From contig JAUXIO010000004.1 in NCBI GenBank assembly GCA_030620975.1, positions 1 through 43,924 of the forward strand: a DNA stretch of 43,924 nt. The letters are read 5' to 3'. A program made the translations under genes and the position numbers. Numbering within the stretch: the stretch's first letter is position 1; every line of letters starts with the position of its first letter. Below, in pieces: positions 5,083-8,673 of this stretch. The DNA is from Dehalococcoidia bacterium. Lineage in GTDB: Bacteria; Chloroflexota; Dehalococcoidia; GIF9; JAUXIO01. The notes below the pieces were generated by a model, which saw nothing but the letters and a program-made list of their open reading frames with translations, had not been told where the DNA came from and did not search any database.

Positions 5083-5111
5083 TTGACAGATGGTTGAGCA
5101 TTCTTTAAAAT
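5083..5111 (+). promoter_or_regulatory. Sigma-70-type promoter for the DUF5320/NifX cluster
   Basis: TTGACA (5083-5088), a 17-base spacer and TAAAAT (5106-5111) form a near-consensus housekeeping promoter. It lies about 60 bases upstream of the first DUF5320 gene, so this cluster is probably transcribed separately from cysS. Confidence 0.75.
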
Positions 5112-5169
5112 GATTATGGACATATGTCAATAATTCCGTTGAAATCACTGTAGGAAGGAGGTGAATAGG

Positions 5170-5436
5170 ATGCCATTAGGAGATAGAACTGGACCTATGG
5201 GGATGGGACCGATGACGGGGAGAGCGGCTGGTTATTGTGCCGGTTTTGGCATGTCAGGCTTTGCTAATCCCGTACCTGGACGCTTTGGTGGGTCATATGG
5301 ATATCCTTATGCTGGTGGGTATGGAGCTGGTATGCCTTATATGGGCTATGGCTACCCCTATGCTGGCTGGGGACGCGGCTGGGGACGTGGTTGGGGACGT
5401 GGACGTGGTTGGGGACGTGGACGTGGCTGGTGGTAA
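5170..5436 (+). CDS. DUF5320-type Gly/Tyr/Trp/Arg-rich small protein
   Basis: This small protein (88 residues from the ATG at 5170) starts with MPLGDRTGPMGMGPMTGRAAGYCAG, the usual opening of DUF5320-type proteins (MPxGDxTGPxGxGPxTGRxxGYCAG). The centre is rich in Gly, Tyr and Pro. The last 25 or so residues are a Trp-Gly-Arg repeat ending in Trp-Trp. The GTG at 5161 is part of the Shine-Dalgarno AAGGAGGTG, so the ATG 9 bases later is the better start. Function is unknown; in my knowledge of the family such genes often sit beside NifX-like and Mrp/NBP35 genes, as here. One Cys (in GYCAG) is a possible metal ligand. There is no signal peptide or membrane segment. Confidence 0.82.
   Translation: MPLGDRTGPMGMGPMTGRAAGYCAGFGMSGFANPVPGRFGGSYGYPYAGGYGAGMPYMGYGYPYAGWGRGWGRGWGRGRGWGRGRGWW
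5365..5433 (+). repeat. In-gene tandem repeat encoding Trp-Gly-Arg-Gly units
   Basis: Degenerate repeats of GGNTGGGGACG and GGACGT run to the end of the first DUF5320 gene and encode alternating WGRG and RGRG units. Such repeats can change copy number by slippage, so the C-terminal length may vary between strains. Confidence 0.7.
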
Positions 5437-5473
5437 AATTATAGATTAAATATTGTGAGGGAGGTGAAGAGGC

Positions 5474-5677
5474 ATGCCGTTTGGAATGGGACCAGCAGGC
5501 TGGGCTTATGGTTATCCTTATCCTTATGCTGGGGGGTCGCCTTATTATGGCGGTTATGGATGGCCTTGGGCGCCTCTTTCTAAGGAGCAGGAGATAGCAA
5601 TGCTTGAAGACCAAGCTCGGGCTTTGGAACATGAGTTAGAAGGTATTAGGGAAAGGCTGGAGGAGCTTAAGAAATAG
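5474..5677 (+). CDS. Second DUF5320-type small protein with C-terminal coiled coil
   Basis: This 67-residue protein has a Gly/Tyr/Pro-rich N-terminal half (MPFGMGPAGWAYGYPYPYAG) followed by a charged helix from about residue 36 to the end (EQEIAMLEDQARALEHELEG and onward), a likely coiled coil. It lacks the Trp-Gly-Arg tail of the gene before it but shares its Tyr/Gly composition. A similar leucine-spaced helix ends the NifX-like protein encoded next, hinting that the two could pair. The Shine-Dalgarno GGGAGGTG lies just upstream of the ATG. It follows the first DUF5320 gene by 37 bases, so it is probably co-transcribed. Biochemical role unknown. Confidence 0.78.
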   Translation: MPFGMGPAGWAYGYPYPYAGGSPYYGGYGWPWAPLSKEQEIAMLEDQARALEHELEGIRERLEELKK

Positions 5678-5740
5678 AAGACCTGAGAGCGCAATGTAAT
5701 TGGCTAATGCCGTTTGTTTCCCAGATAACTTTAAACGAGG

Positions 5741-5769
5741 GTGACAATTAGATAGCTAGGTGCTAGAAT
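5741..5769 (+). promoter_or_regulatory. Promoter upstream of the NifX-like gene
   Basis: GTGACA (5741-5746), a 17-base spacer and TAGAAT (5764-5769) resemble a sigma-70 promoter with one mismatch per box. It lies in the 168-base gap before the NifX-like gene, so that gene may have its own start besides read-through from 5083. Confidence 0.5.
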
Positions 5770-5845
5770 AAGGGAACTGGAGACAGGGTAGCAGGCTCAG
5801 GAATCTAGTTTAATTATTTGTCATTAGGAGAAAGGTAGGGCAGCT

Positions 5846-6370
5846 ATGAAGATTGCGATATCGGCGACGGCGCCTAGCTTGAATGCCGATGTAGACCCTC
5901 GTTTTGGGCGCTGTCAGTATTTCGTTATTGTTGACCCAGCAACTATGGAGTTTGAGGCTTTAGAAAATCCCAATGTATCTGGTTTAAGCGGTGTTGGTAT
6001 TTCTACTGCTCAGATGATTGCCAGTAAGGGAGTGAGCGTTGTACTTACTGGTAATTGTGGGCCCAAGGCGTATCAGACCCTTTCAGCAGTTGGCATTCAA
6101 GTTATTAGCGGAGTTGTGGGTAAAGTGCGGGATGCCACTGAGAGTTATAAAGCGGGACAGCTTGGAGCGACCCCTCAACCTACTGTGGATGCCCATTTTG
6201 GTATGGGTATGGGTAGAGGAGTTGGTACGATGTCTGGGGTGGGGCCAGCTTCTCAATCGGCAAGCTCAGAGCACGAAGTAGAAGTGCTTAAAGCTCAGAG
6301 TCAGATGCTATTGCAGCAGTTGAGGCAAGTCCAGCGGCGAATAGAAGAATTAGAGAAAAAGAAGTCCTAA
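5846..6370 (+). CDS. NifX/NifB-C-type dinitrogenase cofactor family protein
   Basis: Residues 1 to about 115 match the dinitrogenase iron-molybdenum cofactor biosynthesis fold (NifX/NafY/NifB C-terminal type, also seen in the orange protein Orp). Visible marks are MKIAISATAPSLNADVDPRF at the start, CQYFVIVD, the GVGISTAQMIASKGVSVVLTGNCGPKA core and a final VGKVRDATESYKAG. Members bind or carry metal-sulfur clusters. No nitrogenase genes are visible, so nitrogen fixation should not be assumed. A glycine/methionine-rich linker with GMGMGRGVG joins the fold to a C-terminal helix of about 30 residues (EVEVLKAQSQMLLQQLRQVQ and onward) resembling the helix of the DUF5320 protein upstream. Shine-Dalgarno: AGGAGAAAGG. 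Confidence 0.85.
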   Translation: MKIAISATAPSLNADVDPRFGRCQYFVIVDPATMEFEALENPNVSGLSGVGISTAQMIASKGVSVVLTGNCGPKAYQTLSAVGIQVISGVVGKVRDATESYKAGQLGATPQPTVDAHFGMGMGRGVGTMSGVGPASQSASSEHEVEVLKAQSQMLLQQLRQVQRRIEELEKKKS

Positions 6371-6410
6371 TAGACAACACTAGACAAGCTAGTAATTCTA
6401 GTAAACAACT

Positions 6411-6419
6411 TGCTATAGT
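6411..6419 (+). promoter_or_regulatory. Possible extended -10 promoter upstream of mrp
   Basis: TGCTATAGT fits an extended -10 element (TGnTATAaT) without a good -35 box. It lies about 180 bases before mrp in the 227-base gap. The leader would include the inverted repeat at 6473-6524. Weak evidence. Confidence 0.3.
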
Positions 6420-6472
6420 ATTGGCTAATATAAAGTGATATTTATTGCTCGTGGCAAAGGTGGTAGGAGAAG

Positions 6473-6524
6473 TTATTAACATCTTTGCCTTTCTTTTTGC
6501 CTTGGGCTTGATAGATGTTAATAA
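6473..6524 (+). repeat. 12-bp perfect inverted repeat in the mrp leader
   Basis: TTATTAACATCT (6473-6484) and AGATGTTAATAA (6513-6524) are exact reverse complements separated by 28 bases. Allowing one mismatch, the arms extend to 15 bp. No T run follows, so this looks more like paired operator half-sites or a leader RNA stem than a terminator. Confidence 0.6.
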
Positions 6525-6597
6525 GTTAACATTGCTCTGCTCAGAGGATAGATTACGGTTAGCTTCTTGACGTGCTATTTTTTTAAGGAGATGTTGT

Positions 6598-7599
6598 ATG
6601 TTAACTGAGATACAGGTTAGGGAAAACCTGAAGCAAGTGCTTGTTCCCGGCGTGTTGCGTAGCTTGATACAACTTAATCTCGTTCGCAGCATAGATATTG
6701 CTGATGACAAATTGGAAATCGCATTGGCTTCAGCAGCTTTGAATAGCAGTGCTCAAGTTTGGCTTAAGGATAAGGTGTTAGAGGTTGCACATGGGCTTCC
6801 CGGGGTGCGTGAGGCCAAGGTTGAGTTTACTGAAACGAAGCCTAAGGAGGTTAACCGAATCGGGCATGTGGTGGCGGTTATGAGTGGTAAAGGCGGAGTG
6901 GGTAAGTCTTTAGTGGCCAGCCTGATGGCTGTTGCCATGGCTAGAGAAGGTAAAGACGTTGGTGTCCTTGATGCCGATATCACCGGTCCCAGCATTCCCA
7001 AGATGTTCGGTATAAGCAGTCATCCCGGCGGCAGTGAGAATGGGCTTTTACCCGTGCTATCAAAGGCGGGAATTGAAATTATGTCTATTAATCTTCTGCT
7101 ACCCCAGGAGGACGATGCTGTCATTTGGCGAGGACCTCTTATTGGTAAGGCGATAACCCAGTTCTGGGAGGAGGTGCTTTGGGGTAAGCTTGATTACCTT
7201 ATTGTGGATTTACCGCCGGGTACTGCTGATGCCCCGCTGACGGTGATGCAATCTTTACCATTAGCGGGAGTAGTTATTGTATTTACCCCTCAGGCCCTTA
7301 CTGCAATGGTGGTAAAGAAAGCGGTGAAAATGGCGCAAACCATGAAAACGCCTATTTTGGGCGTAGTGGAAAATATGAGTTATTTACTTCTGCCAGATAC
7401 AGGGAAGAAATTAGAGCTTTTTGGTGAAAGTAAGGGGGAAGAGATGGCAAAAGCGGCTGCAGCACCCTTTTTGGGTTCCTTTCCCATTGACCCTGAGCTG
7501 GCTAATTTGTGTGACCGGGGAGAGATTGAGCGCTATAACTCAGATGCTTTTAGCGCTTTTGCTAGAGCTCTTGCTGAGACAATGGCTGCTCTTGATTAA
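6598..7599 (+). CDS. mrp: Mrp/NBP35-family P-loop ATPase with N-terminal DUF59
   Basis: Mrp/ApbC proteins are cytoplasmic MinD-like ATPases that carry [4Fe-4S] clusters to target apoproteins. Residues 1 to about 78 form a MIP18/DUF59-type domain. The deviant Walker A motif GKGGVGKS is at residues 97-104 with the signature Lys98. DADITGPSIPKMFG and the switch DLPPGTADAPLTVMQ follow. The segment that normally reads VENMSYxxCPHCG is VENMSYLLLPDTG (about 256-269), so both cysteines that bridge the cluster at the dimer interface are missing. The ATPase core is intact. It may act as a regulatory or partner ATPase rather than a cluster scaffold. Start ATG follows AAGGAG. It sits beside NifX-like and DUF5320 genes. 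Confidence 0.88.
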   Translation: MLTEIQVRENLKQVLVPGVLRSLIQLNLVRSIDIADDKLEIALASAALNSSAQVWLKDKVLEVAHGLPGVREAKVEFTETKPKEVNRIGHVVAVMSGKGGVGKSLVASLMAVAMAREGKDVGVLDADITGPSIPKMFGISSHPGGSENGLLPVLSKAGIEIMSINLLLPQEDDAVIWRGPLIGKAITQFWEEVLWGKLDYLIVDLPPGTADAPLTVMQSLPLAGVVIVFTPQALTAMVVKKAVKMAQTMKTPILGVVENMSYLLLPDTGKKLELFGESKGEEMAKAAAAPFLGSFPIDPELANLCDRGEIERYNSDAFSAFARALAETMAALD

Positions 7600-7708: not shown

Positions 7709-8197
7709 TTGATATTAGATTACACCAGATGCAAGCATGCCAGTATAGCTGAATTGGAGGAGAATTCTTTGTTAGTGCGGGTTGCTGTGGAGGATACCTT
7801 TTACGCTGCTGAAGTGGAGATGGTGGTGGGGCTTCCCGCTTTGGAGGTTACTTCCATTAAGGGAAAGGTAAAGAGAGCATTTAGTGATAAATGCCAGCAG
7901 GCTGTTCCCTTATTGAATGAGGTGGTGGGTATGCGAGTGGGTTCTGGCATCATTAAGGCAGTTAATGATTTAGTCGGTGGCCCAAGTGGTTGCCCAAGAT
8001 TGGCGGATTTGATTCTTGAGGGATTCAACGATGTTATCTTGCGATATACCATGCCGCCATTGAGAGAAATTGTTCCTCTGGCTGGGCAGGCACAACTGGA
8101 AGCCTATCAAGTGTACCTCAGAAAAAGTCCAAGGCTTGTGGGTAGTTGTATTGCTTTTGCTGAGGGGAGCCCATATAGGGAAGGACTGGAAGTATGA
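7709..8197 (+). CDS. DUF2889 family protein (first of a tandem pair)
   Basis: The 162-residue protein resembles DUF2889. It has an N-terminal strand-rich part with YTRCKHASIAE and LLVRVAVED, a middle EVTSIKGKVKRAFSDKCQQA segment, and a GPSGCPRLADLILE motif where family members usually have a GC-H/P-L-x-x-L-L-E pattern. Function is unknown. The TTG start is supported by AAGGAGGGGGG a few bases upstream. The stop overlaps the ATG of the next gene (ATGA), and that gene encodes a second DUF2889 protein, so both are made together and may form a heteromer. It begins about 110 bases after mrp. Confidence 0.72.
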   Translation: MILDYTRCKHASIAELEENSLLVRVAVEDTFYAAEVEMVVGLPALEVTSIKGKVKRAFSDKCQQAVPLLNEVVGMRVGSGIIKAVNDLVGGPSGCPRLADLILEGFNDVILRYTMPPLREIVPLAGQAQLEAYQVYLRKSPRLVGSCIAFAEGSPYREGLEV

Positions 8198-8673
8198 GTA
8201 CTGAGGAGGTTACGCATATGCTATCATTCACTCGAACTAAAGTTATCGGCGTTGAGAGTCCCAAGGAAAACATTTTGCTTGCTCACGGCGTGTTAGATGA
8301 TAACATTTATGCTATGGAACTTGATGTTGAAGTGAAGCTTCCTGATTTTGAGATCACTGGCATTCAAGGTAGGATGAAGAGAACTACTACTGCGGAATGT
8401 TGGAAGGCTGTTCCCAAGTTGGGAAATGCTATTAGTTTGCGTATTGGTGAAGAGCGTTTCATTAGTAAGATAAACAGGGGTGTGGGGAAACAAGGATGTA
8501 GCCATTTTGCCAACTTGCTGTTGGAGTGCTGCGATGCAATTAGGCAGCAAGCAATTTATGGTGGGTGGCGGAAACTTAAGGAGAAGGATGCTTCTTTAAG
8601 CAAAGAGAGCTTTTTGAAAGAGCAGCTCAAGAAGATTCCAGACTTGAAAGATAGCTGCCTTCTCTACTCTTGA
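8194..8673 (+). CDS. DUF2889 family protein (second of a tandem pair)
   Basis: This 159-residue protein is a divergent paralogue of the preceding one. The shared pattern includes SFTRTKVIGVE, an ITGIQGRMKRTTTAECWKAV segment aligned with the SIKGKVKRAFSDKCQQAV of its neighbour, and QGCSHFANLLLECCDA matching the family's conserved GC-x-L-LLE stretch. It has a more charged C terminus. The ATG at 8194 overlaps the upstream stop by four bases. Role unknown. A conserved cysteine and histidine in the GCSH motif are possible catalytic or metal residues, but this is inference. Confidence 0.72.
   Translation: MSTEEVTHMLSFTRTKVIGVESPKENILLAHGVLDDNIYAMELDVEVKLPDFEITGIQGRMKRTTTAECWKAVPKLGNAISLRIGEERFISKINRGVGKQGCSHFANLLLECCDAIRQQAIYGGWRKLKEKDASLSKESFLKEQLKKIPDLKDSCLLYS

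Follow-up and report, generated by a model that had tools for sequence, protein, structure and literature searches.

The window analysed here is a stretch of 43,924 nucleotides from a Dehalococcoidia bacterium whose genome is available as a 71-contig draft of 1.02 Mb. It contains four clustered genes for two small proteins, a NifX-type protein and an Mrp-type P-loop ATPase (Table 1). The initial annotation, made from the sequence alone, had described this cluster as a candidate metal-handling system with a good promoter before its first gene, and Pfam profile searches confirmed the four gene assignments. The annotation had also seen no nitrogenase genes, in agreement with a profile search of the whole genome, where no nitrogenase component (PF00148) was found over the cut-off.

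Table 1. Features of the four-gene cluster in the window (positions in the window, 5' to 3').
Feature	Position	Strand	Remarks
Sigma-70-type promoter TTGACA-17-TAAAAT	5083..5111	+	11/12 consensus matches
Candidate DUF134 operator TTATGGACATATGTCAATAA	5114..5133	.	2 bp after -10, overlaps expected transcription start
DUF5320-N gene	5170..5436	+	88 aa, pI 10.3; PF17253 44.3 bits, profile 1-54
DUF5320-C gene	5474..5677	+	67 aa; PF17253 31.2 bits, profile 37-99
NifX/ORP-like gene	5846..6370	+	PF02579 85.3 bits; PF17253 28.8 bits in tail
Inverted repeat, 15 nt, 28-nt loop, between NifX and Mrp genes	6470..6527	.	
Mrp-type P-loop ATPase gene	6598..7599	+	PF10609 300 bits; N-terminal PF01883 27.8 bits

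For the first gene, the most likely start codon is the ATG at 5170, which has a ribosome site (GGAGGTGA) and gives the N-terminus MPxGDxTGPxGxGPMTGRAAG found in relatives; on the same grounds a GTG at 5161 is disfavoured. The promoter scan as a whole yielded 6 sites compared with 6.0 in shuffled sequences, that is, no excess, and the promoter in Table 1 is credible because a conserved palindrome adjoins it. The Mrp gene follows the NifX gene at a distance of 228 bp and may have its own promoter. The inverted repeat between these two genes is present in a single copy in the genome.

The cluster is preceded by cysS and followed by two DUF2889 genes and by genes for a PHP protein, CoaE and DUF169. 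The DUF2889 genes (7709-8673) are tandem and overlapping and lie outside the conserved operon described below; they were rejected as a part of the system because none were found close to the relatives' operons. The PHP gene was likewise not found near the operon in the relatives' loci, while CoaE, CysS or DUF169 occur singly near some of these loci without a fixed position.

The DUF5320 proteins and the NifX-like protein

The two small proteins had been annotated as a DUF5320 pair. Both exceed the Pfam cut-off for this family (PF17253, 27 bits), but they are not two equal proteins: one corresponds to the N-terminal half of the profile (DUF5320-N) and the other to the C-terminal half (DUF5320-C). 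DUF5320-N has a GTGP motif, one cysteine and a tail of Trp-Gly-Arg repeats, and no coil; its tail of 60 aa contains 22 Gly, 16 aromatic, 7 basic and 0 acidic residues (pI 10.4). DUF5320-C combines a Tyr/Gly/Pro stretch with a C-terminal coil that shows heptad enrichment (p about 0.001). The tail of the NifX-like protein is a third partial match to the profile, passing the cut-off narrowly (28.8 vs 27 bits).

The NifX-like protein consists of a NifX/ORP-like domain (residues 1-112), a disordered linker (112-140) and a DUF5320-type helix (141-173), for which AlphaFold2 gives pLDDT values of about 97, 43 and 90, respectively. Both the profile score and the orange-protein (ORP) fold place the protein in PF02579 (Nitro_FeMo-Co). 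The nearest solved protein to its domain by sequence is D. gigas ORP, and the best Foldseek match is ORP 2wfb (TMt 0.91, rmsd 0.9). A protein qualifies as an ORP by binding a Mo-Cu sulfide cluster. Residues C23, C71 and H117 are kept in the NifX-like family, the conservation of C71 in our named set being due in part to the search pattern LTGNCGPN, and ORP has Ala and Val at the positions of C23 and C71. In the tree the domain groups with ORP (97/99), and MTH1175, which represents the IssA clade in this tree following its assignment in PMC5524996, falls outside the group. Elsewhere in the same genome, a NifX domain is joined to a permease-like membrane part with a weak match to ArsP_1 (L060:459-1256, G000:C26).

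It had been proposed that DUF5320-C and the NifX-like protein pair through similar leucine-spaced helices at their ends. These helices proved to be one shared DUF5320 domain, a coil common to DUF5320-C, the full DUF5320 and the NifX tail. A profile made from NifX tails alone matched 227 of 8,650 ORFs, comprising 95 NifX fusions, 128 DUF5320 proteins, 2 further DUF5320-C, a ferredoxin (weakly) and the ORF L043:3992-4531, so that all but 2 matches are NifX fusions or DUF5320 proteins. The L043 ORF encodes a PF04060 Fe-S domain that shares with NifX the attached Met-Gly-Arg linker and DUF5320 coil. Coiled-coil helices generally look alike, which counts against an argument from a shared coil. Since the NifX tail is a DUF5320 coiled coil, the physical pairing of DUF5320 with NifX is nevertheless supported, and the shared helix would be the point of contact. 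It follows from the matches of the tail profile and the fold, linker and helix model of the NifX-like protein that the DUF5320 coil is a portable adaptor carried by metal-binding heads.

The tail of DUF5320-N invites comparison with the thioferrate storage protein IssA, whose tail of 70 aa contains 15 Gly, 14 aromatic and 7 cationic residues (pI 10.7; PMC5524996). It is possible that the NifX-like protein nucleates a thioferrate-like polymer for iron-sulfide storage, with DUF5320-N supplying an IssA-type tail in trans. The two tails are alike in make-up, and the NifX linkers of 67 homologues are Met/Gly-rich and almost free of acidic residues. We consider this scenario rather unlikely, given the place of the NifX domain beside ORP and apart from MTH1175; composition by itself is weak evidence, and the DUF134 protein discussed below has a similar tail. 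Members of IssA, which form thioferrate nanoparticles, carry a basic Gly/aromatic tail of their own and belong to the IssA clade; the NifX-like protein fits neither the tail nor the clade description. We take the likeness as a lead on function and not as a sign of membership.

Operon organization in relatives and the candidate operator

A second locus of the same genome, on contig C21, encodes DUF134 (C21:19440-19913, 157 aa), a full DUF5320, an FmdB-type zinc ribbon, a Gly-rich zinc-ribbon protein and two MinD-ferredoxin ATPases, with an IscU-like protein and a ferredoxin further along. In order-level relatives there is a single operon, in the order DUF134, DUF5320-N, DUF5320-C or a full DUF5320, NifX with its coil, ribbons, two MinD-ferredoxins, a short NifX (112 aa), Mrp and IscU. 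Judged by this gene order, the presence of two loci in place of one indicates that the window cluster is a split-off half of a widely conserved anaerobe operon. The window and C21 loci could be nearer to each other than the draft suggests; yet each is continuous with unrelated genes.

The initial annotation had suggested a check of the gene neighbourhood across Chloroflexota, and the result was favourable, with a neighbourhood conserved beyond chance: in 60 of 80 named loci, the end of a DUF5320 ORF lies within 300 bp upstream of NifX. Over these loci the counts are 74 for DUF5320, 68-71 for MinD-ferredoxins, 55 for Mrp and 48 for DUF134, and many of the contigs end early. The relatives are mostly Dehalococcoidia, and fewer are titled Aerophobetes, Aminicenantes, Ratteibacteria, Deltaproteobacteria, Armatimonadota, Planctomycetes, Caldisericota or Bathyarchaeota. 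The candidate metal-handling system thus corresponds to a metal or Fe-S handling operon conserved in relatives. The idea of a conserved system with paired proteins was supported, whereas the larger operon (DUF134, MinD-ferredoxins, zinc ribbons) and the candidate joint operator had been missed. One relative (G017) has, in addition to the main operon, a second operator followed by DUF134, a short NifX, Mrp and IscU (L216, G017:C8, 116-2614).

The palindrome was found in a repeat search, just past the window promoter. A search for TTATNRACATATGTYNATAA with up to 3 mismatches gave two matches in 1.02 Mb, one at the window palindrome and the other at C21:19968-19987, ahead of the genome's only DUF134 gene; the reversed pattern, used as a control, had 0 matches in the same 1.02 Mb. 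Among 55 distinct DUF134 upstream regions, the site is present at no more than 2 mismatches in 29 and at no more than 5 in 52, compared with a peak at 9 mismatches in random stretches of the same loci. It starts exactly 2 bp past the -10 of a TTGACA-N17-TANNNT promoter in 49 of 59 cases; for comparison, 0.18% of randomly chosen positions have a promoter at this spacing. The site occurs in 41 of 48 loci with DUF134 vs 2 of 32 without (Fisher p about 7e-13, an optimistic value as the loci are related). The two exceptions are L088, which has a cut-down DUF134, and L145, where the operator (7917-7936) lies ahead of a NifX gene and the DUF134 of the same genome (Kmv37) is found in L142. The Kmv37 arrangement is an independent parallel to the split seen in the window.

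The palindrome is conserved, keeps a fixed spacing to the promoter and also precedes DUF134 itself, as would be expected of a DUF134 regulon. DUF134 genes throughout the group are preceded by the same promoter and palindrome, and both halves of the operon are therefore probably controlled by a DUF134 repressor acting at this candidate operator; a site over the transcription start would be the usual layout for a repressor. A search of the literature by title and abstract gave nothing useful on the palindrome with a repressor. Palindromes like TGAACATATGTTCA resemble the sites of ArsR/SmtB proteins, and this resemblance would allow another metal sensor, for example of that family, to bind the palindrome with DUF134 being merely a neighbour. 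This is very unlikely, as the presence of the site tracks the presence of DUF134 and the candidacy of ArsR/SmtB is weakened by the lack of any PF01022 protein over the cut-off in this genome.

DUF134 combines a Cys ribbon with a basic Gly/Trp/Arg tail. In two loci (L229:1100-1858 and L230:1069-1806) DUF134 is instead fused to a NifX (Nitro_FeMo-Co) domain, with the palindrome ahead of each fusion gene. The fusions suggest that NifX is the sensor part; in view of them, or of the ribbon and tail, the signal for DUF134 may be a cluster held by NifX.

The Mrp ATPase and a possible role of the system

The Mrp protein has a deviant Walker A motif (GKGGVGKS, in agreement with GKGGhGK[ST]) and is the only strong Mrp match in its genome, one copy per genome being the rule. 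It has no CXXC, and alignments place MSYLLLPDTGKK at the corresponding position. CXXC is absent from Mrp in all 30 Mrp loci of the order that were read, window included, and a cysteine in the motif LCDxGxIE is found in 29 of the 30; the window Mrp has a single cysteine, Cys305, which lies in this motif. The operon Mrp proteins of Aerophobetes, Aminicenantes and Ratteibacteria are usually shorter and have CXXC. Across 51 Mrp proteins tallied, CXXC and the LCD cysteine are mutually exclusive.

In MrpORP the CXXC binds a bridging [4Fe-4S] cluster and is reported to be essential in vivo (PMC6345978). The initial annotation had applied to the window protein the notion that Mrp proteins move Fe-S clusters, which rests on CXXC; because this motif is missing here and in every relative of the order that was read, a role as Fe-S carrier cannot be assumed. 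Foldseek matches of the Mrp protein include 8zkc and 2ph1, and the list also includes the ATPase-type HypB, MinD and FleN, so docking or switch roles are possible. With CXXC missing, we regard a switch or partner-docking ATPase as more likely than a cluster-bridging carrier.

Alternatively, the system may be mainly a sensing module, in which the CXXC-less Mrp and NifX signal the state of the cluster or metal to DUF134 and the operon regulates other genes instead of building clusters. The loss of CXXC, the NifX domains fused to DUF134 and the regulator ATPase FleN among the PDB neighbours of Mrp would fit this reading, and there is a precedent in SalA of B. subtilis, an Mrp-type regulator without CXXC (searching the literature by title and abstract gave nothing useful on SalA with CXXC). 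We find this improbable: this genome has no operator site beyond those of the operon, the sites with at most 1 mismatch in relatives sit at DUF134 genes, and the MinD-ferredoxins, IscU and the Fe-S fusion indicate cluster chemistry.

The explanation that we favour, and consider reasonably likely, is that the window holds half of a split ORP-type operon for the assembly or trafficking of metal-sulfur clusters, with DUF5320 scaffolds, a CXXC-less Mrp and shared control by DUF134. The NifX/ORP domain would hold a small metal-sulfide or heterometal cluster in a pocket with C23, C71 and H117. The DUF5320 proteins would act as low-complexity scaffolds, held together by the coil that the NifX tail has in common with DUF5320-C and the full DUF5320. 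DUF5320-N may contact the anionic cluster or assembly through its basic Gly/Trp/Tyr/Arg tail. Mrp and the two MinD-ferredoxin ATPases would provide ATP-driven loading or release, electron-linked in the case of the MinD pair, and the DUF134 repressor from C21 would bind the palindrome past each -10, keeping both halves co-controlled. The DUF134-NifX fusions in L229 and L230 and the coil on the PF04060 Fe-S domain in L043 support this proposal. A more speculative and less likely possibility is that DUF134 senses clusters or metals and, as a repressor with a defined operator, controls a cluster-assembly system in which DUF5320 proteins make up a modular scaffold, joined by coiled coils, for an anionic metal-sulfide species. 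This would amount to an IssA-like function divided among several proteins, and the CXXC-less Mrp would drive the system.

The new elements are the palindrome linking both halves, the CXXC-less Mrp and the IssA-like tail chemistry on a separate DUF5320-N. DUF5320 and DUF134 are uncharacterised families (the open literature searched mentions DUF5320 and UPF0251 in passing only), and the proposal gives them a concrete testable role. The fixed promoter-operator pair offers a short DNA probe for finding DUF134 and its signal, and a sole CXXC-less Mrp fixed across an order raises the question of how Mrp works without its cluster.

Comparison with known systems

The window system is closest to the orange-protein system of Desulfovibrio, where the ORP complex includes the MinD-ferredoxins Orp3 and Orp4, Orp8, and Orp9, which is MrpORP. 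The two have in common the NifX/ORP domain, Mrp and paired ferredoxin-bearing MinD-like ATPases (PMC6345978). They differ in that Mrp and NifX are separate genes here, DUF5320 and DUF134 are present, and Mrp has no CXXC. The MrpORP family (NF041136) is defined by a score over 450 with both domains in one protein, whereas the two separate proteins of the window score 321.1 and 30.3 bits. The orp operons depend on sigma-54, an activator and IHF (PMC3897727), in contrast to the sigma-70-type promoter with a palindrome found here.

The Mrp protein resembles the Mrp/Nbp35/ApbC carriers in its PF10609 P-loop domain, its deviant Walker A motif and an N-terminal PF01883 domain as in ApbC, and is unlike them in the lack of CXXC, its one cysteine being located elsewhere. 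With Pyrococcus IssA the system shares a NifX-family domain and the chemistry of a basic Gly/aromatic tail, although here the tail is on the separate DUF5320-N and the NifX domain is nearer to ORP in the tree. The ATPase-type HypB of Thermococcus, a fold match to the window Mrp, provides an example of an Mrp/MinD-like ATPase that takes part in nickel delivery.
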